From Variovorax sp. RA8 (GTDB lineage: Bacteria; Pseudomonadota; Gammaproteobacteria; Burkholderiales; Burkholderiaceae_C): 64,000 nucleotides of DNA. Numbering within the stretch: the first letter of the stretch is position 1; each line of letters opens with the position of its first letter. The DNA lies in the NCBI RefSeq assembly GCF_901827175.1, contig NZ_LR594662.1, positions 2,542,001 through 2,606,000 on the forward strand, written 5' to 3'. Below the pieces are notes generated by a model. It was not told the DNA's origin. It did not search any database and saw only the letters and a list, made by a program, of their open reading frames with translations. This document shows, piece by piece, positions 31,299 through 50,894 of this stretch. The position numbers and the translations under genes are program-made.

Positions 31299-31515
31299 GC
31301 ACTGAAGTCTAGACCGCCGCGCAGCCGCGCGCAGGGGCATTGCCTTGGTGATACAGCGCGGATACATGCCGGACACACGCCGACGCTGACGCGGTCATGA
31401 GCAACTATCTGTCAATCGAAAGCGTTGCTTGCGCCTGCGCCGGGCGCCCGTCCTCCCCGAAAGTCAGCCGCAAGAGGGTCAGCTTCAATCCAACCGATCT
31501 TTGAGGACAACGGCC

Positions 31516-32792: not shown

Positions 32793-35700
32793 ATGCCAGA
32801 TTCAAAGGTCGACTTTCTTCGCCCGCGCACGCACCGCTTTGCCCTGGAGAGCCGCCAGCTGTTCGACGGCGCCGCCTTCGTCGAGGCGGCCACGCACGCG
32901 GCCGACGCACCGCAAGCGGGGAGTGCGCCTGCAGACGCCCATCATGCGGAGCCGGCGCATCCGGCATCCCCGCAGCAACACGCGCCGGCCGCGGCAGAGT
33001 CGGCACCGGCCCCGCAGCCCGCGCCGAGCGCACCGCACGAGGTCTATGTCGTCGACCGGAACGTCGCGAACTGGCAGCAGCTCGCCGCGTCGGTCCCCGC
33101 GGGTTCCGAACTGATCCTCCTGGACACCGGCTCTTCCGGCGTGCAGCAACTCGCCGACTCGCTCGGCGGCCAGAGCGGCATCACCGCGCTGCACATCCTG
33201 AGCCACGGCAGCGCCGGCGAGATCACGCTGGGCAACGAGCAGGTGGACGCGGCCAGCCTCGAGCGCTCCGCCGAGGCCTGGAGGACCATCGGCGCGAGCC
33301 TCGGCGCCGATGCGGACATCCTGCTCTACGGCTGCGATGTCGCAGCCGATGGCGCCCGGTTCTCGCAAGCGCTCGCCAGCCTGACCGGCGCCGACGTGGC
33401 GTCCTCCAGCGACGCCACCGGCGCGGCCACGCGCGGGGCGGACTGGACGCTGGAATCCTCCACCGGCCACATCGAGGCGCGGACCTTCGCCGACGCCGAC
33501 TACGACGGCGTCATGGCCGCCCCCACGGTCACCACCACGGCGACCCGGCTCGTCGTGACGGAGCCCAGCAGCCTCAACGCACCCGGCGCCGACCGCGGCA
33601 CGCTCAGCGGCTGGACCATCACCGACGACGGATCCGGCAACGTGACCGTCGCCGTCGTGGTCGAAGACCCGACGAAGGGCACGCTGTCCTCGGCCAGCAC
33701 CACCGGCGTCATCGGCATCGCGGGCGGCTACAGCTTCACCGGCAGCGTGGCGGCTGCGAATGCGTGGGTGAACCAGCTCGTGTTCACTGCGGCCGACGTC
33801 GAGCTCGGCACTACCGCGGCCAGCACCCGCATCGTCGTGACCGCCACCGACTCCGAAGCCCCCGCGCTGACCGCGACACGCGCGCTGGACGTGACGGTGA
33901 CGCCGTCGAACGACCCCGTGGCCGTGCCCGATGCGACCCAGTCGGTCAACGAGATCGGGAACACGGTCCTGACGGTGGCGACGCTGAACGCGATCGATCC
34001 CGAGGTGACGCTCGGCACCCAGGTGCCGAGCCAGGTGGTGTACGCCCTCACGGCCGACACCGCGCATGGCTACCTCATGCTCAACGGCACGCGCCTGGGC
34101 ATCGGCGCGGTGTTCACGCAGCAGGACGTGATCGATGGACTGGTGGTGTACGTCCACACCGCCACCGGCGCGGACCAGAACACGCAGGACGGCTTCGCGG
34201 TGCAGATCAACGACGGCGCCACGCCGTCGAACCGCTCCGACACGGCCGCCATCACGCTCGACGTCACGCCGCTGAACCAGGCGCCGACCGTCAGCGGCTC
34301 GGGCACCATCCTCGAAGGCCAGCCCGCCAATGCGCTCGACGGCGGCGGCAACCCGGCGTCGGTGGTCGGCAACTTCATCGTGGCCGAAGGCGGCGGCGAC
34401 GACGCCGACGCGGCACTCACCGTGCGGCTGACCAGCCTGCCGACCGACGGCACGCTGTTCTTCAGCGGCACGGTCACCATCGGCGGCGTGTCGCAGGCCG
34501 TCACCAACCGCGCAGTGACGCAGGCCGACATCGACGCGGGCTTCGTCTTCGCCTACGGAGCGCGTGGCGGCCTGACCTACGCCAACGCCGGCAACCGCGA
34601 CACCAACCCCGCGACGCCGTATCCGTACGCCGACGGCTTCGGCGTCGCGGTCAGCGACGGCGGTGGTGGTGCGGGCGGCGGCGCGGTGCAGACGACCAAC
34701 GCCACCATCGCGCTAACGATCCAGCCCACCGACGACGATCCGGCTCTCGATCCGGCGAGCAGCTTGGTTGCCACCGTCACCGCCCCCGGCGACGGCAGCG
34801 GCGCCTACACGGTGACGCTGACCGAGGCGATGCTGAATGCCTTCGACGTCGACTCCAGCGACGATCGCCTGACCATCGCCGTGACCTCGCAGGCCATGCT
34901 CGACCAGGGTCGCCTGCTGCTCAACGGCCAGGTGCTGCCGAGCGGCGGCACCTTCACCATCGCCGACGTCAAGGCGGGCCGCGTGCAGTACGTGCAGCAG
35001 GCCGGTGCGGGACCGAACCAGACCGACGTCTTCCAGTTCCAGGTGCGCGACAACACGACCAGCGTCCGCTGGAATGCCGACGGCACGCGCGTGGAGCGCG
35101 ACGGCGGGCAGTACAACGACGGCGGCACGCCCGGCAACTACGTCGACGACAGCCTGCGGACCTTCGATTTCACGTTCAACCTGGTCGAGACGCCCACCGG
35201 TAACAACGGCAGCTTCCCGCCCCTGGACAACGCCACCACCCACGCCGATTCCAATTACGCCGGCACCAACGACAGCGGCGTCTCGCGCGGAACCCTGAGC
35301 GAAGGCGGCACCATCGTGCTGGCCGGCACCGGCAGCGACTTCAGCGTCACGCCCGGCCTGAGCTACACCGCCGACGGCGTGCCGCCCGAACAGGTGGTCT
35401 ACACCATCCTCGGCTTCGACGGCGTGGCCGGCGGCGCATGGAACGGCGTGCTGCAGCGCTTCAACGGCACGACGTGGGTGGCCATGGGGGTGTACGACAC
35501 CTTCACCCAGGCCGATCTGAATGCCGGCAGCATCCGCTTCCAGCACGACGACGCCAGCGAGGATTTCGAGTCGAGCGTGCGGCTCTCCGCATCCGCCGGC
35601 GTGCTCGTCGACGACGGCGCGGGCGGGCTGACTTCCGATTCGTGGGACACCAGCTTCACCTTCTTCATCACGCCGGTCAACGACACGCCGGTCACGCTGG

Positions 35701-38700
35701 GCTCTTCGAACACGGTCATTCCCGAAGGCGGCACGGCCTACATCACCACCGGGCAGCTGCAGATCACCGATGCGGACGATGCAGCCAGCGAGAGCTACCT
35801 CGAGTCCTCGGCCACGCTCCCGGGCGGCGGAAGCAACTACGCGTTCGACAACGCAGCCACCGGCGCCGGTGCACTGCAGGTCGAAGTGCTGACGCTGCCA
35901 CCCGGCGGCACGCTGCAGTATTCGACGGACGGCGGTGCCAACTGGCTCGACGTCACTGCAGGCCAGCTCATCGACGCGGCGCTGATCACCGGCAGCGCCG
36001 GCAACACCGGGCTGCGCTTCGTGAGCGACGGCTCGGAGCTGCGCAACACGAGTTTCGATGTGCGTGCCGTCGATCGCTGGGGCGCCACCTCGAACAGCGC
36101 GAGCGTCGGCATCCAGATCACCAACCTCAACGACGCACCGCAGATCGCGCCCGATCCGACGCAGGCCGATCCCGCGACCTCGGTCAACAACCCGCTGACG
36201 GTGGCGGAGGGCGGCTACGCGCAGATCTCCACGGCCATGCTCTCGGCCTTCGATCCGGACAGCAGCACGACCCAGGTGCAATACACCATCACCGGGGCCG
36301 CGGCGCACGGCAGCATCGCCTACTCGACCGACGGCGTCACCTTCCTGCGGCTGGGCGTCGGCTCCTCCTTTTCCGAAGCGGACGTGCAGGCCGGGCGCAT
36401 CTACTACCTGCACGGCGGCGACGAGTCCGACGGCGCCACCTATCCGGATCCGCCCAGTGACTCCTTCACCTTCAGCCTCGGCGACGGCGACAAGGAGCAG
36501 CCGGGCAACCAGTTCTGGATCTATGTCACGCCGGCCAACGATGCGCCGGTGGTCACCGGGCCGACCGATCCGATTCCCGTCGACAGCGCGAGCGGCGTCA
36601 ACAACCCGGTGCCGGGCTTCAGCGTGGCCGACGCCGACATGGACACGCCGGCCGCCGGCGAGACCGATTTCGTGCAGGTCACCGTGCGCCTGCTCGATGC
36701 CGATGGCAACGCCTTCAACGCCGGCGGCTATGCCGGCGTGACCATCGGCTCGACTTCCCTGGGCGGCGTGACGGTCGACGGCGACAAGAACGGCACGGCC
36801 GACTTCCTGACGCTGCGCGGCACCCGCGCGCAGGTCAACGCGGCCCTCGCGGGCCTGACCGTGACCTTCGGCGACGACCGCGATGCGGTCTACCAGGTGC
36901 AGGTCATCGCCGACGACCGGTTGCGCGATGCGGCCGGCACCTTGCAGTCCGGTGCCAACGGCGGGCCGCTCAACGAATCCGATCCGCCGGGCACGACCGG
37001 CATCGCCGTCCCGGCGACCGAGTACGACTGGTACAGCGCCGCCGTGCCGACCGCCGGCGCCATCACCGGCAATCTCTCGGCGGCCTCGGTGCGCATCTTC
37101 GCCTCGAGCGAGAACGACCCCGCGACGCTGGCCGCGCCCCCGAGCGCCAACGTGGTCGAGGACCAGGCCACCTACATCGGCGGCGGCTTCGTGGTCGCCG
37201 ACCCGGAGTCGGCCGCCTTCGACACGCCGGTCACGGTGCGGCTGTCGGTGCCCAGCGGCACGCTCGGCATCGGCGGCGCCGGCGCGCAGGGCAGCGTCAC
37301 CCCCGGCGGCGGCCAGGCCGTCACGGTCACCGGCGACAACACCGGCCTGCTCGTCCTCACCGGCCGTGCGAGCGACATCCAGGCCCTGCTCAACAGCGGC
37401 ACGGCGACGGGCCTCACCTACCGCAGCGCGGCCGACGTGAACCACGACGCCAACGGCGGCGATGCCGGCGACGTGACGCTCACCGTCTCGTTCGACGACG
37501 TGGGCTCGCGCATCGGCGACGACGTGGGCGCCGGCAGCGTTGCCCACAATCCGCCGGACGTGACCATGGCACTCACCATCGCGCCGGTGAACGATGCGCC
37601 CACGGTCTCGCTCGGCGGCGGCGTCACGCCGGGCACGCCGGTCGTCCTGACCGGCGGCGCCACGCCCACCGCGGTGCCCGGCTTCGTGGTCGGTGACGTC
37701 GACGTCGACGGCGACATCGTCGGCAACGGCGCCGCATCGGACGTGACCGACGGCGAGAGCGACTTCCTGCAGCTGACCATCCGCATCACCGATGCCGGCG
37801 GCAACGCCTTGCCCCCCACCTCCTACGACGGCACCGACGGCGAGGTCACCATCACCTCGAGCAATGCGGGCAGCTCGGGCGTGGCAGTCGACGGCGTGTT
37901 CGACGGCACCGGCAGCGCGCTGGTCATCAGCGGCACCCGGGCCCAGGTGCAGGCCTACCTCGACGGCCTCGCGGTCGCGCTCACCGGCGAGCTGGCCAAC
38001 GGCGACGTGGGCTACCGCGTCGAGGTCATTGCCGACGATCGCGTACGCGACGGCGGCGGCGTGGTGACCGGCGCCAACGGCGGCCAGAACGACGACGCGG
38101 GCAACGGCACGGCGGTGCCCCCGGCAACCGCCATCAACCCCTACGCGGCCACGCCCGGCGGGCTGGCGAGCAATGTCGCATCGACCTACCGCACGCTGTT
38201 CCCGTCGTCCGTGAACGATCCGGCGCACATCGCGGCCGGCGACCTGAATGCCGGGGAGGGCAGCGGCAGCGTCACCCTCACCGGCATCACCGTGACGGAC
38301 CAGGACGCGCTGGACACCAGTATCCTGACCACCACCGTGTCGGTGCCCGCGGGCTTGTCGATCACCAGCATCGGCGCGGGCAGCGGTGGCAGCGCGGTGA
38401 TCGCGGGCGACGGCCGGTCGGTCACCATCACCGGCACGCTGGCCGAGATCAACAGCCGCATCAACACCATCGCCGTGCAGCTCCCCGATGCACCCGGCGT
38501 GGGGGGGCGCCCGGACTGGAACGGTTCCTTCACCGTCACCGTGGTGGTCGACGACGAAGGCAACACCGGCGGCCGGCCGGCGACGCTGGCACCCGGCGAC
38601 AACAGCACGACCGGCACCTTCGCCTACCAGGACGGCGTGGCCGCCGACCTGGTCACCACGCGCAGCTTCAGCGTCACCGTCGATCCGCTCAACGACGCCC

Positions 38701-41700
38701 CGGTCGTGGTCAACGGCAATGCCGAGACCCTGCCCGCCGTGAACGAAGATGTCGGCAATGCGGCCGCGGGCAGCACCGTCGCGGCCCTGTTCGGCAGCCA
38801 CTTCAGCGATGCGGCCGACCAGATCGACAACAGCGGCATCGACGCGACCGGCGGCAGCACGCCTGACGGCTTCTTCGGCGTGGCGATCACCGGCCTGGCA
38901 CTGGACCCGGCGCAAGGCGAGTGGCAGTACTCGCTGGACGGCACGACCTGGACGGCCGTGGGCGCTCGCAGCGATGCCAACGCGCTGGTGCTCGCATCGA
39001 GCGCGCAGCTGCGCTTCGTGCCGGCCGCGGACTTCCACGGCGCGCCCAACACCCTCACGGTGCGCCTGGTCGAGACCGATGCCAACGCCGACAGCGCCAC
39101 GCCCGACCCGGTGTCCGGCTCGACCGTGAACGTCGCAGGCACCGGCAACGGCGGCACCACCGTCTACAGCGCGGGCACGGTCGTGCTGTCGACCAGCGTG
39201 GCCAACGTCAACGATCGACCCACCGCGATCGACGCCGTGCTCGCCGCCGGGGTGGAGGACCAGCAGGGCCAGCCCGCGCCCGCGGCCACCGCGGCCAGCC
39301 TGTTCGGCGGCGGCTACGGCGATGCGACGGACAACCAGGCCGGCGTCACCGGCGGCGGCAACGCGGCCACGCCCTTCGGCGGCATCGCGATCGTCGGCAA
39401 CGCCGCCACCGCGGCAGAGGGCGGCTGGCAATACTCGACCGACAGCGGCGCGAGCTGGACGACTGTGCCGACCGGCGCTTCCGACGGCAGCGCGGTCCTG
39501 CTGCCGCCCGATGCGCAGCTGCGCTTCGTGCCGGCCGCCGACTACAACGGCACCCCGGGCGCCTTGACGGTGCGCGTCTCCGACACCGCCGTCGCTGCCG
39601 GCGCGGGCGACATCAGCGCCACGGTCGGCGCCCCCACCAGCCAATGGTCGGCGACGCACACGCTGTCCACCACGGTGGCGCCGCGCAACGACACGCCGGT
39701 GCTTGCGGGAACGCCCACCAACGCCAATGCGGTCGAGAACGGCCAGACCGGCACCGGCGTCAGCATAGCGCCGGTCGCGCTGCTCAGCGGCGCCACCGTC
39801 TCCGACCTCGACCTCGCCACCACGCCGGGGCTGGGCGCCGGCATCTTCGGCGCGGGCCGCATCACCGTCGGCCTCGACGGCTACCAGCCGGGTGACCTGC
39901 TGCTGGTCGACGGCGCACTGCCCGCCGGCGCCACCGTCTCCGGCGGCAACGGCGCACCCCTGGTCGTGCAGTTCGATGCCGACACCACGCTGGCGGAAGT
40001 GCAGGGCGTGCTGAACGCGCTGTCGTACCGCAGCACCAGCGACAACCCGACCGACTTCGGCGCGGACCCCGACCGCGTCTACACCGTCGTCATCAACGAC
40101 GGCGACAACGTGCAGGCGGGCGGCAACGCCGGCGGGCCGGCGCTCGACAGCAACGTGCTGACGGGCACGCTCACCATCGTGGCCGCCAACGACCTGCCGA
40201 CGGCGAACGACGATACGCACAGCATCGTCGAGGACACGGCCTCGGTCGGCGCCAACGTCGTCACCGGCCGGGTGCCGGGGCAGGGCGATACCGATCCCGA
40301 CCACGCAACGCTGACCGTGAGCGCCGTGCGCACCGGCACCGAGGCCGGCAGCGGCACCGCCGGCAGCGTGGGCAGCCCTCTGGCCGGCAACTACGGCAGC
40401 GTCGTCCTCGATGCCGACGGCAGCTACACCTACACGCTGAACAACGCCGATCCGCGCGTGCAGGCGCTGACGGCCGGCGAGACGCTGACCGAGGTCTACA
40501 CCTACACCGTCTCCGACGGCGCGGGCGGCACCGACATCGCGCAGCTCACGATCACCATCACCGGGGCCGCCGACGGCGGCGCGGGCGACGACATCCCCGC
40601 CATCGTGGCGGCTGACCAGAACGGCGCGGCGACCGGCCACCTCAGCGTGAACGAGGCCGGCCTCACCAGCGCAGGCGACACCAGCGAAACGGCCGGCAGC
40701 ACCTTCGCGATCAGCGCCGCGGACGGACTGAGCAGCATCGGCATCAACGGCACGACCCTGACGCTTGCACAGCTGCAGGCCGCGACCCCCGGCGCGCCGC
40801 TGACCATCACCACCGCCGAAGGCGTGCTGAACATCACCGGCTTCACGCCCACGGGCACGGCCGGCGGCCTCACCACCGCCGGGGACGTGAGCTACACCTA
40901 CACCCTGCTGCAGCGGCAGGACCACAGCGGCGGCGAGGTCACCGATCCCTTCGCGCTGACCGTGATCGACCGCGATGGCGACGTGGCGAACGGCACCCTC
41001 ACGGTGCTGATCGTCGACGACGCTCCGCTGGCGGCCAGCGACGCGAACAGCGTCGACGAAGACGCGGGCACGAACACGGTTGGCGGCGATTTGAAGGCCA
41101 ACGACCGCAACGGCGCGGACGACGGCAACGGCGTGCCGCTCACGGGCGTGAGCTTCGGCGCCACGCAGGGCATGCTGGGCAGCCCGCTTGCCACCGCCTA
41201 CGGCAGCATCGTCGTCAACGCGGACGGTACCTATACCTACACGCTCGACAACGACAACTCCGCGGTGAATGCACTCAAGGACGGCGAGACGCTGACCGAG
41301 ACGCTGAGCTACACCATCGTCGATGCCGATGGCGACACCTCGACCGCCACGCTCACCATCACGATCAACGGCCGCACCGACTCGGGTGGGCCGACGATCG
41401 TGCCGGCCGACGGCAATGGCGCCGCGGCCGGCCAGACCGAGGTGCATGAAAGCGGCCTGGCCGACGGCCCGGGCGGCGCGGACCCGCGCGAGACCAGCGC
41501 CGGCACCATTGCCATCGGCGCAGCCGACGGGCTGACCTCGGTCACTGTCGGCGGCACCACGCTGACCCTGGCCGAGCTGCAGGCGCTCGGCGCCACGCCG
41601 CGCAGCATCGACACCGGCGAGGGCCTGCTGGTGCTCACCGGCTTCACTGCCACCAGTTCGGTCGGCGGCGTGCCGACGGCCGGCGAGCTGAGCTACACCT

Positions 41701-43649
41701 ACACGCTCAAGAACCCGCTCGACCAGCCCGGCGCCGCCGAGAGCTTCGATCCCGTCGCATTGCAGGTCAGCGATGCAGGCGGCGGCTCGAGCACGGGCAC
41801 GCTGCAGGTGCGCATCGTCGACGACGTGCCGCAGGCGGCGGACGACGCTGCCAGCATCGACGAGGACGCGACGCCGAACACCGTGAGCGGCGACGTGAAG
41901 GCGAACGATGCGAACGGCGCCGACGACGCCAACGGCGTGCCGGTCACCGGCGTGAGCTTCGGCGGTACGCCGGGCAGCACGGGCATCCCGCTCGCGACGG
42001 CCTACGGCAGCATCGTCGTCAACGCCGACGGCAGCTACACCTACACGCTCGACAACGCGAACCCGGTCGTCCAGCACCTGCTCCCCGGCGAGACGCTGAC
42101 CGAGGCGGTGAGCTACACCATCACCGACGCGGACGGCGACACCTCGACGGCCACCATCACCATCACCATCGGCGCCGCCGACGACGGCGTGTCGCTGGTC
42201 CTCGACGACGGCAACGGCCCCGGCAGCACCGGCGAGGCCACCGTCAGCGAACGCGGACTGGGCGACGGCGGCGACCCGAGCGAGACCACCACCGGCCGCT
42301 TCGTGATCCGCACGCCCGACGGCCTCGGCAACCTCGAGGTCGCCGGCACCACCCTGACCCCGGCGCAGCTGGCGCAGCTCGGTACGACCGCGATCACCGT
42401 CGTGACCGACAAGGGCCTGCTCACGCTCACCGGCTACGACCCGGCGACCGGTGCCGTCACCTACAGCTACACCCTGACCGGCCGGCAGCCGCACGCGGGC
42501 GGCGAGGTGACGGACGACATCGCCATCGTCGTGCGCGACCGCGACGGCGACACCAGCGCGGGCAGGCTGCGCGTGCTGGTGATCGACGATGTGCCGACCG
42601 CGCGCGACGACGCCGCGTCGGTCGACACCACGCGGCCGGGCGCCTCCACTGTCGGCGGCAACGTGTTCGGGCCGAACGGGCGCGGACCGGGCGACGTCGG
42701 CGACCGCATCGGTGCCGACGTGGTGGCCGAGCCCGTGACCGCCTTTTCCTTCGAGGGGCGCCCCGGCGTGATCGGCGGCGGGGCGCTGGCCGGCGCCTAC
42801 GGCAGCCTGCGCATGAATGCGAACGGCAGCTACAGCTACGAGGTGGACACCGGCAACGCCCGCGTCGCCGCGCTCAGCGACGGCCAGACGTTGACCGAGG
42901 TGTTCAGCTACACCATCACCGATGCGGACGGCAGCACCAGCACCGCCCAGCTGGTGGTGACGATCCGCGGCGCCTCGCAGTTCCGCCCGCCGGAGGGCGA
43001 CCAGGTCTTCCCGATCGAGTGCCCGGCGCAGCAACGCGTCATCGCGCAGGGCATGGCGCCCGCGCTCTTCGTGCAGTTCTCGGTGCACGAGTCGCAGCGG
43101 GTCAGCCAGGAGGCCCTGGCATCGATCGCGGCGCGCGTGGCCGGCGGGGCGTCGTACAGCGCCTTCGACCAGAACGCGCTGCCCGGCGTCGGCCAGGACA
43201 TGAGCAACATCCAGCACGTCAGCCGCGACGGCGTGGCCGCCTCGCTGCGGCTGCTGGAGGACCTGCGGCAGAGCCTGGCGCTGCGCGGACTCGGGGCCGG
43301 CCTGCCGGACGGCGGCAATGCGCTGTTCGGCGACTTCCCCGCCTTCGCCGCTCCGGAGGAAAAGGCCGCGCCGCCCGCACAGGGCGGTGGCGAGCGCATC
43401 GTGGTGCCCGGGGCCAGGACCTCGGCCGCGCCGCTCGACGCGCACGCGCCGCATGCGGAGCTCATCCGCCTGCCGGCCGCGGCCCACGCCGCCGACGTTG
43501 CCGAATCGGCGGCGCGGCCGGCCGATGCCGCGCGCTCCTTCTCCGGCCGGCTGGCCGCGAGCGCTGCCGAACGCGGCACCGTGCGCGACCTCGTTCGCGT
43601 GCAGCAGCACGAGCCGGTGCGCGTCACGGTACAGGGAGCCCGGTCGTGA
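32793..43649 (+). CDS. Giant secreted protein: DUF4347 plus cadherin/VCBS-like repeats
   Basis: About 3,618 residues from ATG 32793. The N-terminus has no Sec signal; ESRQLFDGAAF resembles the LEPRxLFDGA-type motif of other giant exported proteins. DUF4347 (residues ~83-245) has a His (LSHGSAG, His138) and Cys (LYGCDVA, Cys181) placed like a caspase-type dyad. Residues ~250-2,500 are tandem cadherin/Ig-like units with NDAP linkers. Residues ~2,470-3,396 are VCBS-like units with YTYTLDN and TLTE..SYTITDADG motifs. The C-terminal ~220 residues are partly helical, then Ala/Pro-rich. No GGxGxD RTX nonapeptide is seen. The four following genes form its probable export apparatus. Likely a surface adhesin or biofilm matrix protein. 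Confidence 0.9.
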   Translation: MPDSKVDFLRPRTHRFALESRQLFDGAAFVEAATHAADAPQAGSAPADAHHAEPAHPASPQQHAPAAAESAPAPQPAPSAPHEVYVVDRNVANWQQLAASVPAGSELILLDTGSSGVQQLADSLGGQSGITALHILSHGSAGEITLGNEQVDAASLERSAEAWRTIGASLGADADILLYGCDVAADGARFSQALASLTGADVASSSDATGAATRGADWTLESSTGHIEARTFADADYDGVMAAPTVTTTATRLVVTEPSSLNAPGADRGTLSGWTITDDGSGNVTVAVVVEDPTKGTLSSASTTGVIGIAGGYSFTGSVAAANAWVNQLVFTAADVELGTTAASTRIVVTATDSEAPALTATRALDVTVTPSNDPVAVPDATQSVNEIGNTVLTVATLNAIDPEVTLGTQVPSQVVYALTADTAHGYLMLNGTRLGIGAVFTQQDVIDGLVVYVHTATGADQNTQDGFAVQINDGATPSNRSDTAAITLDVTPLNQAPTVSGSGTILEGQPANALDGGGNPASVVGNFIVAEGGGDDADAALTVRLTSLPTDGTLFFSGTVTIGGVSQAVTNRAVTQADIDAGFVFAYGARGGLTYANAGNRDTNPATPYPYADGFGVAVSDGGGGAGGGAVQTTNATIALTIQPTDDDPALDPASSLVATVTAPGDGSGAYTVTLTEAMLNAFDVDSSDDRLTIAVTSQAMLDQGRLLLNGQVLPSGGTFTIADVKAGRVQYVQQAGAGPNQTDVFQFQVRDNTTSVRWNADGTRVERDGGQYNDGGTPGNYVDDSLRTFDFTFNLVETPTGNNGSFPPLDNATTHADSNYAGTNDSGVSRGTLSEGGTIVLAGTGSDFSVTPGLSYTADGVPPEQVVYTILGFDGVAGGAWNGVLQRFNGTTWVAMGVYDTFTQADLNAGSIRFQHDDASEDFESSVRLSASAGVLVDDGAGGLTSDSWDTSFTFFITPVNDTPVTLGSSNTVIPEGGTAYITTGQLQITDADDAASESYLESSATLPGGGSNYAFDNAATGAGALQVEVLTLPPGGTLQYSTDGGANWLDVTAGQLIDAALITGSAGNTGLRFVSDGSELRNTSFDVRAVDRWGATSNSASVGIQITNLNDAPQIAPDPTQADPATSVNNPLTVAEGGYAQISTAMLSAFDPDSSTTQVQYTITGAAAHGSIAYSTDGVTFLRLGVGSSFSEADVQAGRIYYLHGGDESDGATYPDPPSDSFTFSLGDGDKEQPGNQFWIYVTPANDAPVVTGPTDPIPVDSASGVNNPVPGFSVADADMDTPAAGETDFVQVTVRLLDADGNAFNAGGYAGVTIGSTSLGGVTVDGDKNGTADFLTLRGTRAQVNAALAGLTVTFGDDRDAVYQVQVIADDRLRDAAGTLQSGANGGPLNESDPPGTTGIAVPATEYDWYSAAVPTAGAITGNLSAASVRIFASSENDPATLAAPPSANVVEDQATYIGGGFVVADPESAAFDTPVTVRLSVPSGTLGIGGAGAQGSVTPGGGQAVTVTGDNTGLLVLTGRASDIQALLNSGTATGLTYRSAADVNHDANGGDAGDVTLTVSFDDVGSRIGDDVGAGSVAHNPPDVTMALTIAPVNDAPTVSLGGGVTPGTPVVLTGGATPTAVPGFVVGDVDVDGDIVGNGAASDVTDGESDFLQLTIRITDAGGNALPPTSYDGTDGEVTITSSNAGSSGVAVDGVFDGTGSALVISGTRAQVQAYLDGLAVALTGELANGDVGYRVEVIADDRVRDGGGVVTGANGGQNDDAGNGTAVPPATAINPYAATPGGLASNVASTYRTLFPSSVNDPAHIAAGDLNAGEGSGSVTLTGITVTDQDALDTSILTTTVSVPAGLSITSIGAGSGGSAVIAGDGRSVTITGTLAEINSRINTIAVQLPDAPGVGGRPDWNGSFTVTVVVDDEGNTGGRPATLAPGDNSTTGTFAYQDGVAADLVTTRSFSVTVDPLNDAPVVVNGNAETLPAVNEDVGNAAAGSTVAALFGSHFSDAADQIDNSGIDATGGSTPDGFFGVAITGLALDPAQGEWQYSLDGTTWTAVGARSDANALVLASSAQLRFVPAADFHGAPNTLTVRLVETDANADSATPDPVSGSTVNVAGTGNGGTTVYSAGTVVLSTSVANVNDRPTAIDAVLAAGVEDQQGQPAPAATAASLFGGGYGDATDNQAGVTGGGNAATPFGGIAIVGNAATAAEGGWQYSTDSGASWTTVPTGASDGSAVLLPPDAQLRFVPAADYNGTPGALTVRVSDTAVAAGAGDISATVGAPTSQWSATHTLSTTVAPRNDTPVLAGTPTNANAVENGQTGTGVSIAPVALLSGATVSDLDLATTPGLGAGIFGAGRITVGLDGYQPGDLLLVDGALPAGATVSGGNGAPLVVQFDADTTLAEVQGVLNALSYRSTSDNPTDFGADPDRVYTVVINDGDNVQAGGNAGGPALDSNVLTGTLTIVAANDLPTANDDTHSIVEDTASVGANVVTGRVPGQGDTDPDHATLTVSAVRTGTEAGSGTAGSVGSPLAGNYGSVVLDADGSYTYTLNNADPRVQALTAGETLTEVYTYTVSDGAGGTDIAQLTITITGAADGGAGDDIPAIVAADQNGAATGHLSVNEAGLTSAGDTSETAGSTFAISAADGLSSIGINGTTLTLAQLQAATPGAPLTITTAEGVLNITGFTPTGTAGGLTTAGDVSYTYTLLQRQDHSGGEVTDPFALTVIDRDGDVANGTLTVLIVDDAPLAASDANSVDEDAGTNTVGGDLKANDRNGADDGNGVPLTGVSFGATQGMLGSPLATAYGSIVVNADGTYTYTLDNDNSAVNALKDGETLTETLSYTIVDADGDTSTATLTITINGRTDSGGPTIVPADGNGAAAGQTEVHESGLADGPGGADPRETSAGTIAIGAADGLTSVTVGGTTLTLAELQALGATPRSIDTGEGLLVLTGFTATSSVGGVPTAGELSYTYTLKNPLDQPGAAESFDPVALQVSDAGGGSSTGTLQVRIVDDVPQAADDAASIDEDATPNTVSGDVKANDANGADDANGVPVTGVSFGGTPGSTGIPLATAYGSIVVNADGSYTYTLDNANPVVQHLLPGETLTEAVSYTITDADGDTSTATITITIGAADDGVSLVLDDGNGPGSTGEATVSERGLGDGGDPSETTTGRFVIRTPDGLGNLEVAGTTLTPAQLAQLGTTAITVVTDKGLLTLTGYDPATGAVTYSYTLTGRQPHAGGEVTDDIAIVVRDRDGDTSAGRLRVLVIDDVPTARDDAASVDTTRPGASTVGGNVFGPNGRGPGDVGDRIGADVVAEPVTAFSFEGRPGVIGGGALAGAYGSLRMNANGSYSYEVDTGNARVAALSDGQTLTEVFSYTITDADGSTSTAQLVVTIRGASQFRPPEGDQVFPIECPAQQRVIAQGMAPALFVQFSVHESQRVSQEALASIAARVAGGASYSAFDQNALPGVGQDMSNIQHVSRDGVAASLRLLEDLRQSLALRGLGAGLPDGGNALFGDFPAFAAPEEKAAPPAQGGGERIVVPGARTSAAPLDAHAPHAELIRLPAAAHAADVAESAARPADAARSFSGRLAASAAERGTVRDLVRVQQHEPVRVTVQGARS
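40588..42980 (+). repeat. Three tandem ~800-bp repeats in the giant gene
   Basis: Units at about 40588-41390, 41391-42186 and 42187-42980, each encoding a ~265-residue pair of domains: [DG]xNG..GxxxVxExGL...ExT, then GTTLT.AxLxxL..., then a VCBS half ending SYTI.DADG.TSTA. Equivalent bases in units 1 and 2 (CTACGGCAGCATCGTCGTCA) are 804 bp apart. The third unit has diverged most. A shorter related VCBS unit precedes them at about 40200-40565. Confidence 0.75.
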
Positions 43650-43702
43650 TCGCAAGCGCACCCATCGGATCCATCTTCCAAACCCAACATGAGAGACCCA
43701 GC

Positions 43703-45595
43703 GTGAAGAAATCGAAGCCATCGAGAGTCCCCGTCGTCCCCACCCTGATGGCAGTGGCCGTTGCCGTCCTCCTCGCCGGCTGCAGCGTCAACCCGGTCCA
43801 GGTAACGCCCGACGAGGTGGCGCAGCGCGTCGCCAACGACCAGGCGCAGATGTACAAGGACCAGGCGCCGGTCGCCGCGCCCATCAGCTACTCCGACGCA
43901 CTGGCCCGGGCGCTCAAGTACAACCTCGACTACCGCCTCAAGCTGATGGAGAGCGCGCTCGCACGCGGCCTGCTCGACGTCTCGGCCGCCGACATGCTGC
44001 CCAAGCTGGTGGCCGATGCCGGCTACAACGACCGCAGCAACGATTCGGGCGGCACCAGCATCGGCATCGAGGACCGCGTCGTGAGCCTGCGGCCCTCCAC
44101 CTCGGAGGAACGCTCGCACTACTACGGCCGCGCCACGCTGTCGTGGAATGCACTCGACTTCGGCCTGGCCTACTTTCGCGCCAAGCAGGCGGCGGACGAG
44201 GTCAACATCGCCGATGAGCGCCGCCGCAAGATCCTGCAGAACATCGTGCAGGACGTGCGTAACGCCTACTGGCGCGCGCTCGGTGCGCAGCGGCTGCTCT
44301 CCGACGCCGACCAGCTCGCCACCCGCATCGAGGACGCACTCGCGAAGTCGCGCGAAGCCGAGCGCGCCGGCGCGCTGCCGCCCGCGCAGGGCCTGGCCTA
44401 CCAGCGCGCGCTGCTCGACGCGATGACGCTGGTCAACCTCAAGCGCCAGGAAATGCAGTTCGCCAAGCGCGAGCTCGCCGCGCTCATGAGCCTGCCGCCC
44501 GGCACCGAGTTCACCCTGGTCGACGGCCCTGCGGATGCGCTGGCGCCCGCCACGCTCGACGTCGACAAGCTCGAACGCGCGGCGCTGGAGAACCGGCCCG
44601 AGCTGCGCGAGGAGGACTACAAGGCGCGCGTCGGCGTCAACGAGACCAGGAAGCAGATCGCCGCGCTGTTTCCCAGCCTCAACCTGTATGCCGGCCCGCG
44701 CTACGACTCCAACGACCTGCTCTACAACAACAGCTGGAGCGATGTCGGCGTGAGCGTCTCGATGGACCTGTTCCGCCTCGCGGCCATTCCGGCGATCAAG
44801 CGCACCAACGAAGCGCGGGTGCGCAACGACGAGGCGCGCCGGCTGGCGCTCTCGATGGCCGTGATCACGCAGGTGCGCGTGTCGGTCGAGCGCTACAAGC
44901 TGGCCCTGGTGGACCAGGAGCTCGCGGCCGAATCGAGCCGTGTGGACCAGCGGCTGGCGAGCGTCTCGCGCGCCGGCAGCAGCAACCGGCTCGAGAGCGA
45001 GCTCGAGTCCCTGCGCACCGATTCGCGTGCGCTGGTCTCGCGCTTCTACCTGGCCACCGCCTACGCCGCGACCCAGGCCTCCTATGCCCGCGTGCTCAAC
45101 TCGGTGGGCATCGACCTCCTGCCCGACACCGTGACCGGCACCGACCTGCCGACCCTGGCGAAGGCCATCGACCACAGCCTGGCCGAAGGCGAGAAGGCGG
45201 CCTTCGTGCAGACAGCCGCGGTGCAGACCGCCAGCCGGCCGGTCGTTGTCCGCGTGGAGAACCTGCCGGCGGGCGTGAGCGAGGCCGCGGTGCGCGGCGC
45301 CGTCGAGCGCATCGTCATTCGCAACGACCTCCAGACGGGGCAGGGCGGCGACGCGCTGGCACTGACGCTGCGTTTCGAGCGCGTGGATTCGCGCGCCACC
45401 GCGCGTGCGCAGTGGCGCGTCACGCTGTCGGAGCCCGGCGGCCGGCAACTGCTGTCGCAGCGCTATGCGAGCTTCCTGCCCGACGCGCCGACCGAGAGCG
45501 CGCTCGGCGCCTTCGCCGAGGCGGCGACGCTGTCGGTGATCTCCGATGTGCGGCGCCTGTCGCGCAGTGGCGCCTCCGTGGCGCAGAAGCCGTGA
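43703..45595 (+). CDS. TolC-family outer-membrane lipoprotein with extra C-terminal domain
   Basis: 630 residues starting at GTG 43703. The signal peptide ends in the lipobox LLAGC (Cys27), so it is a predicted lipoprotein, like CusC/OprM rather than TolC itself. Residues ~60-480 show the duplicated helical hairpins of outer-membrane efflux proteins (LSWNALDFGLAYFRAKQAAD; LENRPELREEDYKARVGVNE; VSMDLFRLAAIPAIKR). Residues ~515-620 form an additional alpha/beta domain not normal for TolC. It follows the giant gene by 53 bases and overlaps the next gene (GTGA), so it belongs to the export operon. Confidence 0.88.
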   Translation: MKKSKPSRVPVVPTLMAVAVAVLLAGCSVNPVQVTPDEVAQRVANDQAQMYKDQAPVAAPISYSDALARALKYNLDYRLKLMESALARGLLDVSAADMLPKLVADAGYNDRSNDSGGTSIGIEDRVVSLRPSTSEERSHYYGRATLSWNALDFGLAYFRAKQAADEVNIADERRRKILQNIVQDVRNAYWRALGAQRLLSDADQLATRIEDALAKSREAERAGALPPAQGLAYQRALLDAMTLVNLKRQEMQFAKRELAALMSLPPGTEFTLVDGPADALAPATLDVDKLERAALENRPELREEDYKARVGVNETRKQIAALFPSLNLYAGPRYDSNDLLYNNSWSDVGVSVSMDLFRLAAIPAIKRTNEARVRNDEARRLALSMAVITQVRVSVERYKLALVDQELAAESSRVDQRLASVSRAGSSNRLESELESLRTDSRALVSRFYLATAYAATQASYARVLNSVGIDLLPDTVTGTDLPTLAKAIDHSLAEGEKAAFVQTAAVQTASRPVVVRVENLPAGVSEAAVRGAVERIVIRNDLQTGQGGDALALTLRFERVDSRATARAQWRVTLSEPGGRQLLSQRYASFLPDAPTESALGAFAEAATLSVISDVRRLSRSGASVAQKP

Positions 45596-46392
45596 AGAGG
45601 ACCGCCAGGTCCCTCGGCCTGCTCGCGCTTTGCGTGTACGGGCTCGGCCTCCAGCAGGCCGCTGCCGAACCGGTGCCGGCGCGTGCGCCCCTGCAGGGCG
45701 CGCCCAGTGCCGCGCCGGTGCGCTTCCTTGTCGTGGCGTCGCAGGAAAGCGTCCTCTCCGCGTCGGTCCCGGGGCGCTTCGCCAAGGTATCGGCGAACCT
45801 GGGCGACACGGTGCGCAAGGGCCAATTGCTCGCCGCCTTCGATTGCGCCGAGATCCAGGCGCGCCGTGATGCGGCACGCGCCGAAGCCGAGGCGGCGCGG
45901 GTGCAGTACGAGGCCAAGATGAAGCTGCAGGGCCTGCAGTCGGCGGCCGAGGTCGAAGTCGAGCTCGCTGCGGCCAACGTCAACAAGGCGCAGAGCCAGA
46001 TCCGCATCTTCGACGCGCAGCTGGGCCAGTGCGCCTTCGTGGCCCCGTTCGCGGGCAAGGTGGCGCGCGTCCATGTCAAGGTGGGGCAGGGCGTGAATCC
46101 CGGTGCGCCGGTGGTGGAGCTTGTCGGCAGCGGCCCGCTCAAGGCGCGGATGAACGTGCCCTCGCAATGGCTTGCCTGGCTCCAGCCGGGCGAGCGGCTG
46201 GAAGGCATGGTCGACGAGACCGGCAGCGCCTGCGCGCTCAAGGTCACGCGTGTGGCCGGCCGCGTCGATGCGGTGAGCCAGACGGTGGAGATCGAGACCG
46301 AGCTCGCCAGTGCCAGCGGCCAGGTGCTGCCCGGCATGAGCGGCCAGGTTCGCGCGCCGGTGCGGCGTCGAGCCTCGCCCGCCGCCGAATGA
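45592..46392 (+). CDS. HlyD/RND-type periplasmic adaptor protein
   Basis: 266 residues starting with GTG 45592, overlapping the previous stop (GTGA). An N-terminal signal (MKRTARSLGLLALCVYGLGL, cleaved near AAAEP) is followed by a lipoyl half-motif (VSANLGDTVRKGQLLAAFD), a short coiled-coil hairpin (RRDAARAEAEAARVQYEAKM to VNKAQSQIRIFDAQL), the second lipoyl half (FAGKVARVHVKVGQGVNPGA) and a beta-barrel. It is shorter than AcrA or HlyD. Likely bridges the inner-membrane part to the TolC-like lipoprotein. Confidence 0.88.
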   Translation: MKRTARSLGLLALCVYGLGLQQAAAEPVPARAPLQGAPSAAPVRFLVVASQESVLSASVPGRFAKVSANLGDTVRKGQLLAAFDCAEIQARRDAARAEAEAARVQYEAKMKLQGLQSAAEVEVELAAANVNKAQSQIRIFDAQLGQCAFVAPFAGKVARVHVKVGQGVNPGAPVVELVGSGPLKARMNVPSQWLAWLQPGERLEGMVDETGSACALKVTRVAGRVDAVSQTVEIETELASASGQVLPGMSGQVRAPVRRRASPAAE

Positions 46393-46396
46393 ATCC

Positions 46397-47749
46397 ATGA
46401 CGGACCTGGCCTTCCATGCGCTGGCTGCGAAGGTGCGCGCGGCCGGCCGCGCGGCCGATCTCGCCTTCGTGATCTGCAACGAGACCCACGCGCTCGCCCG
46501 CTACCGGCAGGCGGCGCTGGTCGGCTACTTCGGCGCGCGGCGCACGCGGCTCGTGGGCCACTCGGGGCTGGCCGACGTCGAAGCGGATTCCCCCTATGCG
46601 CTGTGGCTGGCGGAGGTGGCCGACCACCTGCGGCCGCAGCTCGATGCATTGCCCGCCGCGGCGCCCGTGCTGGCGCTGGCGCCGTCGATGCTCCCGCCCG
46701 CGCTCGCCGCCTCCTGGGCCGACTGGCTGCCCGACCATGTGTGGGCGCTGCCGCTCGCGGGGCCCGACGGCCGCGTGCGAGCGGTCTTGTTCCTGGCGCG
46801 CGAGACCTCGTGGCCTGCCGAGTTCGACGCCGAGGCGCCCGAGTACCTGCTGCTGCAGGCGGCCGCGGTCTATGGCCATGCCTGGTGGGCGCTGACGGGC
46901 CGGCGCCGCTCCATCGGCACGCTGTGGCACGGGCTCTGGGCGCGCAAGGCGCTGCGCTGGTCGCTCCTGCTGATTCCGCTGCTGCTGCTCGTGCCGGTGC
47001 GCGAGTACGCGCTGGTGCAGGCCGAGGTGGTCTCCCTGCGCAGCCAGGTGATCGCCGCGCCGCGCGACGGTGTCATCAAGCGCATGGCGGTGCCGCCCAA
47101 CACGCCGGTCGAGGCCGGGCAGACCCTCGCCGAGCTCGACGACACCACGCTCTTGAACCGCCTGGCCGTGGCGCAGGCCGCGCTGGCCAGCGCGCGTCTC
47201 GAACTGCACCAGGCCTCGCAGCGCGCCATCGAATCGCAAGGCGCCAAGGCCGAGCTCAACCTGGCGCAGGGCAAGCTGCGCGAGCGCGAGGTCGAGGTGG
47301 CCGGCTTGCAGCGCGAAGTGGCGCAGTTGTCGATCAAGGCGCCGGCGCAGGGCGTGTTCGTCTATTCCGATCCCGACGACTGGGCCGGGCGGCCGGTGCA
47401 GACGGGGGAGCGCGTCGGGCTGCTGGCCGACCCGGCCACTCTGGGCGTGCAGGCGTGGGCGCCGGTCAGCGAGGCGGTCAACCTCGCGCCGGGCGCGCCG
47501 ATGACGCTGTTCCTGCGCGTCGCGCCGCTCGATCCTGTCTCCGCGCGTCTCGACTATGCCGGCTACCAGGCCGTCGAGGCGCCGAACGGGGTTGCGAGCT
47601 ACCCGCTGCGCGGACATCTCGAGGAGACGGCGCCCGTCACCCGGATCGGGTTGCGCGGCACGGCGCGCGTGTCGGGCGACTGGATCGTGCTGGGCTACCT
47701 GATGTTCCGGCGCCCCTTCGCGGCGGTGCGGGAGTGGTGCGGATGCTGA
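46397..47749 (+). CDS. GAF-like domain fused to membrane-anchored HlyD adaptor
   Basis: 450 residues. The first ~165 residues look like a cytoplasmic GAF-type domain (AADLAFVICNETHALARYRQ, VWALPLAGPDGRVRAVLFLA). One membrane span follows (about 182-202, WSLLLIPLLLLVPVREYALV). The rest is a HlyD-type periplasmic part: lipoyl halves around VIAAPRDGVIKRMAVPPNTP and SIKAPAQGVFVY with a coiled coil between, then a beta-barrel. The fusion suggests that a cytoplasmic signal could gate the adaptor. It starts four bases after the previous gene and overlaps the next by seven bases. Confidence 0.8.
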   Translation: MTDLAFHALAAKVRAAGRAADLAFVICNETHALARYRQAALVGYFGARRTRLVGHSGLADVEADSPYALWLAEVADHLRPQLDALPAAAPVLALAPSMLPPALAASWADWLPDHVWALPLAGPDGRVRAVLFLARETSWPAEFDAEAPEYLLLQAAAVYGHAWWALTGRRRSIGTLWHGLWARKALRWSLLLIPLLLLVPVREYALVQAEVVSLRSQVIAAPRDGVIKRMAVPPNTPVEAGQTLAELDDTTLLNRLAVAQAALASARLELHQASQRAIESQGAKAELNLAQGKLREREVEVAGLQREVAQLSIKAPAQGVFVYSDPDDWAGRPVQTGERVGLLADPATLGVQAWAPVSEAVNLAPGAPMTLFLRVAPLDPVSARLDYAGYQAVEAPNGVASYPLRGHLEETAPVTRIGLRGTARVSGDWIVLGYLMFRRPFAAVREWCGC

Positions 47750-49836
47750 GCCATGCCACCGCCGCGCCTGCGCCCTGGCCCTCGCTGCGCGAGGAGCTGC
47801 AGATCCATGCGGCGGGCGCGAACCGCGACGGTTCGCCCGCGTGGCACATCTGCGACCCGGTGCGCAATCTCTTCTTCCGCATCGGCTGGCTCGAGTTCGA
47901 GATGCTGCAGCGCTGGCGCCTGGCCGATTCGCAACGCATCGCCCGCGAGGTCGCGGATGCCACCACGCTGGCGCCCGCGCCCGATGACGTGGACGGGTTC
48001 CGAAGCTTCCTCGAGCGCCACCAACTGCTGCGCGCAGCGCGGCAGAAGGCGCCGATGCCGCTCTGGCGATGGCTGCTCGACAACTACCTGTTCATCCGCA
48101 TCCCGCTGGTGCGCCCGGCGATGTCGCTGGAGCGGCTCCTGCCCTGGGTCGGGTGGCTGTTCACGCGCTGGTTCGCGGGCCTGAGTGCACTCGCCGCAGT
48201 TGGCGGCCTGGTGCTCGCGGCGCGGCAATGGGACACGGTGGAAGCCAACCTCCGCGGCGCGCTGAGCTGGGACGGCGTGGTGGGCTTCGCCGGCGCGCTG
48301 ATCGTCTCCAAGCTGCTGCACGAGCTGGGCCATGCGCTGGTCTCCACCAAGCTGGGCCTGCGCGTGGGCCACATGGGCGTGGCGCTGCTCGTGATGTGGC
48401 CCATGGCCTACACCGACACCGGCGAGAGCTGGAAGCTGGAGCGTTCGCGCCATCGCTTTGCCATCGCCTCGGCGGGCATCGCCTCCGAACTCGTGCTGGC
48501 GACGTGGTCGACCCTGCTCTGGGCCTTCCTGCCCGATGGCGACCTGCGCAGCGCGCTGTTCTTCCTGGCGACCACCGCCTGGGTGATGACCTTGCTCATC
48601 AACGCCAGCCCCTTCATGCGCTTCGACGGCTACTACATGCTCGCCGACGCGATCGACTTCCCGGGCCTGCATGAGCGCGCGGGGCAGCAGGCGAGGCATT
48701 TCCTGCGGCGCTGGCTGCTCGGCCTGGACGACCCCCTGCCGGAGGCGCTGTCGACGGGCTTGCGTCGGCTGCTGATCGCCTTCGCCTTCGCGACCTGGCT
48801 CTACCGGCTGGTGCTGTTCGTCGGCATCGCGGTGGTGGTCTATCACGCCTTCTTCAAGGCGCTCGGCGTGTTCCTTTTCTTCGTCGAGATCGGCGTCTTC
48901 GTCGGCCGCCCGGTGATGGCGGAACTGCGCGTGTGGCGCGAGCGCCGCGCCGAGATCCCGCGCCGGCGCAAGCTAGGATGGCTGCTCGCTGTCGTGGCGG
49001 CGGGGCTGGTGCTGTGGATGCCGTGGCATGCCGGCATCCGCGCGCCGGGCGTGATCAAGGCCGGCTCGGAGCAGCCCGTGTATTCGCCCTTCGCGGCACG
49101 CGTGACGGCACTGGACATCGCGGATGGCGCCGACGTCCAGCCCGGTCGCGAACTGCTGATGCTCGATGCCCCGACCCAGGCCGAGGAACGCGACAAGGCG
49201 CGCGCCCTGGCCCTGGCCTATACGCGCGCCGCGCGCGGTGCGCTGGGCCTGGACGAAGGCCCGGCAGCGCAACTGGCCGTGGCCGAGCAGCAGGCGAGCC
49301 GCTGGGAGGCCGAGGGCCGCGCGCGCGAGGCCGAACTGCTCCGGCTGCGGCTGGTGGCCTCGCAGGCCGGCGAGGTGCGCGACGTCGATCCGCTGGTGGG
49401 CCCGGGCACCTGGGTTGCGCCGTCGCAGCTCATCGCGATGGTGGTCGACGGGCAGCGCTGGCGCGTCGAGGCGCTGGTGCCCGAGCATGACCGGCAGCGC
49501 CTGTCGCAGGGCAGCACGGCGACGGTCATCGTCAAGGGGCGCACGCGCAAGCTGCAAGGGCAGGTGCGCGCCATCGACGGCAGCCCGGTCAAGCGCCTGC
49601 CGCACATGCTGCTGGCGCAGGATCACGGCGGCCCGATCGCACTCAACCCGACGCGGCCGAAGACCGAGCTGAGGCCGGCGCAGGCGTGGTTCCGCGTGCT
49701 GGTGGAGGGCGAATCGGAGACCCCGCTTGCCGCGGTGCGCGAGGTGGCAGTGCACTTCGAAGGCACGCGCGAGAGCATCGCGCGCAACTGGATCGACAAC
49801 GCCCTGTCGGTCGTGATTCAGCAGTCGGGATTCTGA
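47743..49836 (+). CDS. M50 (site-2-type) membrane metalloprotease fused to HlyD-like domain
   Basis: 697 residues. Residues ~30-110 (AWHICDPVRNLFFRIGWLEF onward) resemble a PqqD-like winged helix. Several membrane spans follow; the zinc site is HELGH (193-197) within LLHELGHALVSTKLGLRVGH, and the third ligand region is NASPFMRFDGYYML (Asp295), as in site-2 proteases. From about residue 430 there is a further span (LGWLLAVVAAGLVLWMPWHA), then lipoyl halves, a coiled-coil stretch and a HlyD-like beta-barrel in the periplasm. Last gene of the export operon. It occupies the place where an ABC ATPase would normally be encoded. Confidence 0.85.
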   Translation: MLSHATAAPAPWPSLREELQIHAAGANRDGSPAWHICDPVRNLFFRIGWLEFEMLQRWRLADSQRIAREVADATTLAPAPDDVDGFRSFLERHQLLRAARQKAPMPLWRWLLDNYLFIRIPLVRPAMSLERLLPWVGWLFTRWFAGLSALAAVGGLVLAARQWDTVEANLRGALSWDGVVGFAGALIVSKLLHELGHALVSTKLGLRVGHMGVALLVMWPMAYTDTGESWKLERSRHRFAIASAGIASELVLATWSTLLWAFLPDGDLRSALFFLATTAWVMTLLINASPFMRFDGYYMLADAIDFPGLHERAGQQARHFLRRWLLGLDDPLPEALSTGLRRLLIAFAFATWLYRLVLFVGIAVVVYHAFFKALGVFLFFVEIGVFVGRPVMAELRVWRERRAEIPRRRKLGWLLAVVAAGLVLWMPWHAGIRAPGVIKAGSEQPVYSPFAARVTALDIADGADVQPGRELLMLDAPTQAEERDKARALALAYTRAARGALGLDEGPAAQLAVAEQQASRWEAEGRAREAELLRLRLVASQAGEVRDVDPLVGPGTWVAPSQLIAMVVDGQRWRVEALVPEHDRQRLSQGSTATVIVKGRTRKLQGQVRAIDGSPVKRLPHMLLAQDHGGPIALNPTRPKTELRPAQAWFRVLVEGESETPLAAVREVAVHFEGTRESIARNWIDNALSVVIQQSGF

Positions 49837-50570: not shown

Positions 50571-50894
50571 GCGTTCGGAAAAGTTGGAAGTTCAAGAGGG
50601 CAGGCGTCTGACCTTGCCCGCACGCACCCGGGCCGGGTGTGTCTGGAGCGTGAATGTAGGCAAGCCGTGCACGCCAGACAATCGAATTGACAATGCCTAA
50701 GAATTGGTTGGGAAGAGCGAGGGCGGCGTCATCCGGGATGGGCGACGGGCAGGTGTGCAGTCCTGCACGAGCGGGCCGGAATTGACATTCCTTGACAATC
50801 CGCCGCCGCTTCCGCGTCACTGTGACCGGTACACTTTCTTGCTAATCGAAGCCCCAATGCGTTGCGGGCGCTCAACAAAAAGGTAGTACAAGAA
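50571..50894. other. Intergenic region between divergent genes, upstream of two-component locus
   Basis: 324 bp without convincing coding sequence. It contains a bulged hairpin with arms at 50641-50652 and 50670-50679, two TTGACA hexamers (50782-50787 and 50792-50797) and the palindrome GTCAC-T-GTGAC (50816-50826). No TATAAT-like -10 lies 16-18 bases after either TTGACA. It presumably holds the promoter of the response regulator operon. Confidence 0.45.

Follow-up and report, generated by a model that had tools for sequence, protein, structure and literature searches.

The locus described here raises the question of how a giant bacterial protein could be exported when its operon encodes no ATP-binding cassette (ABC) transporter. 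Giants with DUF4347, VCBS or cadherin-like repeats count among the largest proteins that bacteria encode, and one would expect them to leave the cell by type I secretion. In the window, by which we mean the whole 64,000-nucleotide stretch of Variovorax sp. RA8 that was analysed (G000:C1:2542001-2606000, within a 7.42-Mb genome), a giant gene is followed in the same direction by genes for a TolC-type lipoprotein, an adaptor, a GAF-like-HlyD protein and a fusion of an M50 protease with an HlyD-type adaptor domain (M50-HlyD). From sequence comparison, we lean slightly towards reading this five-gene locus as a dedicated TolC-dependent exporter, based on M50-HlyD, for one giant tagged protein, which would probably serve surface display. 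The locus and its relatives would then represent an alternative route that can be tested, equipped with a tag, a protease and adaptors of its own and, in one branch, with a SecA-type motor.

Gene content and organization of the locus

The giant gene (32793..43649; + strand, as for every feature of the block) encodes a protein of 3,618 amino acids with an N-terminal tag, a DUF4347 domain and cadherin-like/VCBS repeats, as indicated by Pfam and NCBIfam matches. After a 53-bp gap follows the gene for a TolC-type outer-membrane factor (43703..45595; OEP, E 9.2e-29), which has a GTG start and the lipoprotein signal LLAGC, and which overlaps by 4 bp the gene for a periplasmic adaptor with profile matches to membrane fusion proteins of the resistance-nodulation-division (RND) type (45592..46392). 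A 4-bp gap separates the latter from the GAF-like-HlyD gene (46397..47749), whose 450-amino-acid product is a membrane-anchored adaptor according to profile, profile-alignment and structure matches; this gene in turn overlaps by 7 bp that of M50-HlyD (47743..49836, ATG at 47743), a site-2 protease-HlyD fusion of 697 amino acids recognised by profile and structure model. The preliminary description of this DNA had claimed the same order with gaps or overlaps of 53 bp or less, no ABC ATPase in the operon and a cargo lacking GGxGxD repeats, and all three points were borne out: the eight ABC_membrane matches of the genome all lie away from the operon, and GGxGxD occurs as one isolated match in the 3,618 residues. 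On the latter count, a repeats-in-toxin (RTX) cargo was rejected for the window giant.

Recurrence of the block in related genomes

Related loci were found in two branches, branch A, which includes the window, and a sister branch B. The 115 branch-A loci came from the panel of the own genome and its relatives, from plasmids, from a contig scan (the best 80 of at least 587) and from one further search, with at least one place counted twice (L048 = L086). All four export genes were present in 92 of the 115, the other 23 pooling contig-edge cases and true absences, and M50-HlyD lay directly behind GAF-HlyD in 102 of the 108 loci with both. Using the eight ABC proteins of the own genome as phmmer queries, no ABC ATPase was detected inside the operon span of any of the 115 loci. 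Among the best 80 contig loci are those of Variovorax, Pseudomonas, Dyella, Caballeronia, Aeromonas, Pectobacterium, Phytobacter, Pantoea, Chromobacterium, Microvirga, Magnetococcales, Desulfopila, Desulfonema and others. The block and a giant gene also occur together on plasmids of Citrobacter, Niveispirillum and Azospirillum, where phmmer found no ABC gene and the gene tables, which are incomplete, list none in the stretches covered (up to 20 kb on each side); on pMSR-1 of Magnetospirillum, the block is accompanied by a 492-amino-acid ELWxxDGT protein. The giant gene may lie upstream of the TolC gene, between the adaptor and GAF-HlyD genes, or downstream of M50-HlyD, while remaining adjacent. 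As had been anticipated from the window, an ABC-free TolC-type set linked to a giant gene thus recurs across classes and on plasmids, and chance neighbourhood was rejected because of this recurrence.

The association is also seen at the level of whole genomes. DUF4347 was found in 16 of 61 genomes, all 16 of which encode M50-HlyD (E<1e-30), and M50-HlyD was found in three of the 45 genomes without DUF4347, one of these being a 90-residue fragment (Fisher p 4.8e-12, a genome-level count over the own genome and 60 relatives, 37 of the 61 belonging to one genus and not being independent).

M50-HlyD itself belongs to a large family, 3,232 of the 7,995 proteins scored reaching E<=0.001. The nearest named homologues of the window protein among the matches listed are from Variovorax, and many named members among the 120 listed are annotated as 'HlyD family efflux transporter periplasmic adaptor subunit' or 'putative peptide zinc metalloprotease protein'. 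Enterobacterial plasmids also carry M50-HlyD, including Citrobacter pCFR-9161 (L059) and 18 Escherichia plasmid records among the matches. In L059, the block lies near insertion sequences, and the giant is annotated as two coding sequences, the first of which bears the tag.

ABC transporters near the block and elsewhere in the genome

The relatives revealed no consistently linked ABC exporter, which the preliminary description had named as the finding contrary to its proposal, and type I ABC transporters encoded elsewhere were inconsistent as well. ABC ATPases occur outside the operon in 15 of the 115 branch-A loci (21 open reading frames [ORFs]). In the closest case on the same strand (L115), an ABC ATPase starts 78 bp past M50-HlyD, and it best matches the phospholipid transporter ATPase MlaF. 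Seven of the 21 ORFs were named by their best matches, which were MlaF and the ATPases of dipeptide (three), xylose, arabinose and glutamine transporters, and none of the seven is a type I exporter.

A type I secretion system could nevertheless operate with an ABC ATPase encoded elsewhere in the genome, M50-HlyD only trimming or regulating the cargo. This explanation appears improbable to us. The TolC- and HlyD-type parts do resemble those of type I secretion, and the available text of one report describes unlinked type I secretion genes for some RTX cargos (PMC7730722). The own genome has unlinked ABC proteins, one of which scored 540 bits against TIGR03375, below the cut-off of 693, and a curated type I ABC transporter is present somewhere in six of the 14 branch-A genomes (G002, G003, G023, G026, G027 and G051). 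However, when TIGR03375 and TIGR01842 were applied to 15 or 19 top-ranking candidates from each of the 61 genomes, eight of the 14 branch-A genomes had no match over cut-off, and TIGR03375 scores of at least 500 bits were reached in 5/14 branch-A and 21/47 other genomes, i.e. there was no enrichment. An unlinked type I ABC transporter as the consistent partner of the block was rejected because these matches were inconsistent across the genomes. The absence of ABC genes from all 115 operons, the lack of RTX repeats in the window cargo and the possession by branch B of a SecA-type ATPase gene (see below) further argue against an ABC ATPase in trans.

In one genome (L214, G034:C1:3160001-3180000), a C-terminal remnant of M50-HlyD, 90 residues long, is found about 2 kb beyond an ABC gene over the TIGR03375 cut-off (735 bits). 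It looks as though the block had been replaced by a type I island, and sites may be shared or exchanged between the two kinds of system.

The giant cargo and its terminal motifs

The DUF4347 domain of the window cargo spans residues 84-233 (33042..33491; profile match, E 8.9e-45); further matches are to Cadherin_3 and VCBS, and Bap/LapF-like matches are below the model cut-off. The N-terminus carries the sequence LESRQLFDGAA (32844..32876), the branch-A variant of an LEPR motif. Its general form, LExRxx[FL]Dx[AG], is common to the N-termini of branch-A giants, often, as judged by eye, behind a basic stretch. When the first 150 residues of ORFs of at least 350 amino acids with a start within the loci were searched, the pattern was found in 29 of 1,549 ORFs, comprising 17 of the 27 cargo genes picked by position and 12 of the 1,522 others. 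All but one of the 29, which was assigned to chance, proved to be giants of the loci or N-terminal pieces of them, and none of 464 recognised other genes of the loci had the pattern. The ten cargo picks that lacked it comprise a variant tag outside the pattern (L129), three genes that look 5'-truncated (L044, L123 and L133), an untagged 492-amino-acid ORF (L060), two loci whose tag is encoded by a separate ORF further upstream (L045 and L059) and three picks that are not the tagged giants of their loci (L050, L053 and L094). The tag belongs to the LEPR-XLL class, whose model NF012209 was passed by one of three branch-A cargos scanned (18.3 bits, cut-off 17) and did not match the window cargo. 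In the literature on this class, a giant protein of the kind is mentioned in passing. Based on sequence, the N-terminal motif is read as the address of the cargo.

A second motif lies near the C-terminus. In its strict form, [FL][ST]x[QK][LVF] with a limited third position, it was present in 38 of 90 cargo picks and 19 of 1,519 controls, and in a loose form in 81 and 460, respectively. The window cargo has SFSGRL (43536..43553) in this region, which follows the loose pattern and does not fit the strict F[ST]xQL form of its relatives.

In another genome, a DUF4347 match (G013:C2, 67194-67685) lies within an open frame of 16,240 codons, and the block with the end of the giant gene (L049) is found about 50 kb away on the same contig. 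A DUF4347 protein of Burkholderia thailandensis, BTH_II1339, is listed as up in a proteome comparison in the available part of PMC12322963.

The M50-HlyD protein

Peptidase_M50 was matched in 40/40 branch-A members at E<=1, with the window protein over the cut-off, and the residues H192, E193, H196 and D294 are invariant in 40/40 aligned sequences. The first three lie in the zinc motif HELGH of HExxH type (48319..48333) and the last in an FDG motif (48622..48630). The best NCBIfam match of the M50 part is the daptide HExxH protease model NF041824 (E 4e-50), with a further match to the YydH/LiaK maturation protease model NF058609 (E 2.6e-5), both below cut-off. Processing of the cargo by M50-HlyD, which the preliminary description had offered as one of two roles, is plausible in view of this sequence conservation and of a PqqD-like N-terminus in the sister branch (see below).

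The structure model of M50-HlyD (pLDDT 87.4, pTM 0.68) begins with a beta3-alpha3 domain (47800..48018). This domain aligns with a PqqD-like region of the sister branch, in which PqqD was matched in 17 of 20 M50-HlyD members at E<=1 (best 9.5e-9). The branch A and B profiles align over their full length, including this region (probability 100, E 4.8e-86). PqqD-like domains are leader-peptide binders in pathways for ribosomally synthesised and post-translationally modified peptides (RiPPs). A PqqD-like element is required for leader cleavage according to the accessible part of PMC10885120. By its sequence, the PqqD-like N-terminus of branch-B M50-HlyD suggests leader recognition.

Given these similarities, the M50-HlyD set could instead export or mature a small RiPP-like peptide, the giant gene being adjacent by chance or co-regulation. 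The identity of the best NCBIfam match and the PqqD-like domain of branch B would fit such a role. We regard it as very improbable, since DUF4347 and M50-HlyD were found together in 16/16 genomes and the giant gene is adjacent whatever its position in the operon. Moreover, no small peptide or modification gene was apparent in the four annotated plasmid loci, for which no systematic search of small ORFs was made.

Components of the putative conduit

The C-terminal part of M50-HlyD (49027..49767) folds like MacA/AcrA adaptors in structure searches with the predicted model, and the HlyD portions of the block proteins generally resemble MacA, MexA and AcrA in their predicted folds. Whole-protein models were used for these searches (Foldseek and VIA for M50-HlyD, Foldseek for GAF-HlyD); the 50 matches listed for each are adaptors, with biotinyl carrier domains in addition in VIA, and are uninformative on the M50, PqqD-like and GAF-like domains. 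Three block proteins have adaptor domains, and the type I HlyD model TIGR01843 was matched below cut-off only. Similarly, the TolC-type protein scored 37.7 bits against the type I model TIGR01844, below the cut-off of 225.

The proposal that the fourth gene encodes a GAF-HlyD fusion held for its HlyD part, while a GAF domain was not matched by Pfam in the window protein. Among branch-A relatives, GAF was matched in three of 24 at E<=1 (best 0.019) and exceeded the cut-off in L051 (25.7 versus 22.4 bits). It was strong in two of three sister-branch proteins scanned (L055 and L057), with which the branch-A family aligns at the profile level (99.9). The domain is referred to here as GAF-like.

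Sister branch B and a candidate motor

Branch-B M50-HlyD proteins are more distant (26-31% identity) and have the same kinds of partners, namely GAF-HlyD, an adaptor and a TolC-type protein. Beside M50-HlyD, on the same strand and mostly overlapping it, lies a gene for a SecA-like protein in 34 of 37 branch-B loci, i.e. 23 of 25 with large flanks and 11 of 12 further loci with flanks of about 1.5 kb; in L162, the M50 frame runs past the sequence end. The SecA-like protein has the DEAD motor and preprotein-binding domains. Among the 61 genomes, only G021, G041, G046 and G052, all of branch B, have a second SecA of this type.

The giants of branch B have their own tag variant. LExRxLLSA-type tags, with small variations such as IEPR and LLSG, were found on eight giants beside branch-B M50-HlyD genes with the start in view (L186, L190, L216, L223, L224, L225, L226 and L228), and two more such giants are encoded at other sites of branch-B genomes (L210, next to an adaptor gene, and L213). 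As judged by eye, branch and tag variant coincide in the loci seen. Two branch-B giant genes (L217 with L187; L218 with L189) are open for more than 28 kb and thus exceed about 9,400 codons.

The presence of a SecA-like gene beside M50-HlyD in branch B makes it more likely that M50-HlyD is receptor, processor and conduit base than motor, and the earlier suggestion that M50-HlyD replaces the ATPase is not supported. In branch B, the motor is probably the dedicated, gene-linked SecA-type ATPase. In branch A, no other motor is linked, and since carriage of the block on plasmids in distant hosts suggests that host factors of wide distribution suffice for it, housekeeping SecA would be the simplest guess. 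A SecA is encoded in each of the 14 branch-A genomes, and that of the window genome is the only one there and has the full domain set. A hidden second SecA in branch-A genomes was rejected, as 13 of the 14 have no second full-length match; G048 and G051 have weak extra matches spanning 67 positions, and a second SecA-type frame, 911 codons long and of a different kind, is present in G014 and also in G007, which has no M50-HlyD.

Proposed export mechanism

In the exporter that we favour, the non-hydrophobic tag of the cargo would be recognised by the PqqD-like N-terminal domain of M50-HlyD, and, at the inner membrane, the M50 core would cleave the tag or hold it. Together with the soluble adaptor, the HlyD parts of the M50-HlyD and GAF-like-HlyD proteins would link to the TolC-type lipoprotein to form a conduit, with transport presumably directed outwards. 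One specific form of this model is a one-step secretion class, in which LEPR-type tags direct giants to a PqqD-like/M50-HlyD platform joined directly to TolC, with a SecA-type motor that has departed from SecYEG; within this form, the motor would be dedicated and devoid of the wing/scaffold domain in branch B, and housekeeping or absent in branch A. We put forward this form tentatively and consider it possible rather than probable.

A two-step route would have the giant cross the inner membrane through SecA/SecYEG by means of an unusual tag, the M50-HlyD/GAF-HlyD/TolC set then only taking it across the outer membrane, or releasing or retaining it. The SecA-like gene of branch B and the SecA found in all 14 branch-A genomes are in keeping with this route, which we nonetheless consider unlikely. 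The tag region has no hydrophobic signal, the branch-B SecA-like protein shows no wing/scaffold domain, and the PqqD-like domain, located ahead of the membrane part, would lie in the cytoplasm, so that recognition of the tag before translocation would be simpler.

Several observations weigh against the exporter proposed here. Pfam PqqD was matched in 0/40 branch-A M50-HlyD members, and the match of the first branch-B member does not reach the PqqD cut-off. A SecA-like gene was found in 0/115 branch-A loci and is missing from two of the 25 large branch-B loci (L056 and L186), and no wing/scaffold domain was matched in 5/5 branch-B SecA-like proteins tested, unlike in the housekeeping SecA of the window genome, which makes coupling to SecYEG uncertain. 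By hydropathy, the window cargo has no hydrophobic N-terminal stretch or Sec signal peptide, and ordinary use of SecA/SecYEG would therefore be unusual. Its C-terminus fits only the loose motif, which is common to 460 of 1,519 controls. The ABC ATPases outside the operon in 15 of the 115 loci and the curated type I ABC transporters in six of the 14 branch-A genomes count on the same side.

Flanking genes

Sensor genes lie on both flanks of the block. A multi-PAS hybrid histidine kinase is encoded upstream (28008-31376, - strand), and a response regulator, an FecR/LysM protein and a CHASE2 histidine kinase downstream (50862-55692, + strand). A 3,002-codon antisense ORF (34713-43721, - strand) mirrors the giant gene and is most likely a by-product of high-G+C codon usage.

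Implications and comparison with known systems

If the proposed exporter is correct, it would provide a function for the LEPR-type N-terminal motif and for the large M50-HlyD family, and would indicate that no ABC, RND or major facilitator superfamily (MFS) pump is required for building a TolC conduit. In the one-step form put forward tentatively above, the pairing of branch and tag variant would make the tag an interchangeable address label for the export of proteins of up to about 16,000 residues. No description of the block was found among the papers listed in searches of an open-access library, subscription papers and preprints, where one may exist, being outside it. In the accessible parts of the respective papers, tripartite systems are reviewed as based on ABC, RND or MFS transporters (PMC8277102), methanotroph surface-layer export is a PrtD-type system (PMC13274458) and a Moraxella paper concerns an ABC system (PMC2761928). 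On gene content, novelty would rest on the missing ABC pump and the branch-B SecA-type ATPase; were a type I ABC transporter needed in trans, the locus would become a type I variant.

Type I secretion comprises an ABC transporter, an adaptor and TolC, with a C-terminal signal, according to the available text of PMC4257090. The block shares with the type I secretion of giant adhesins a TolC-type outer factor, HlyD-type adaptors and a linked giant repeat protein. In contrast, it has no ABC gene, has two membrane-anchored adaptors in M50-HlyD and GAF-like-HlyD, and its cargo bears an N-terminal LEPR-type tag and, in the window, no RTX repeats. Thus, the HlyD-type fusion protein and TolC-type factor of type I systems are present, and an ABC transporter, linked or consistently present, is not; for this reason the locus is not assigned to type I secretion, although it may work like it. 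The window tag is likewise in the motif class of the LEPR-XLL proteins (NF012209), yet its cargo is unmatched by that model.

With RiPP M50 proteases (daptide HExxH, YydH/LiaK and, from the accessible part of PMC10885120, EpeP), M50-HlyD shares an M50 core with HExxH and FDG motifs and, in branch B, a PqqD-like domain. The window protein differs in being fused to an HlyD adaptor domain and linked to TolC and a giant rather than to a short peptide. Accessory Sec (SecA2) systems likewise pair a dedicated large protein with a second SecA-type ATPase, a likeness limited to branch B; the block differs in its TolC, HlyD and M50 parts, its SecA-like protein shows no wing/scaffold domain, and the window genome has one SecA. 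Finally, the HlyD portions fold like the adaptors of MacAB-TolC and AcrAB-TolC, namely MacA, MexA and AcrA, whereas in this block, which contains no ABC, RND or MFS pump gene, the adaptor forms one polypeptide with an intramembrane protease or a GAF-like domain.

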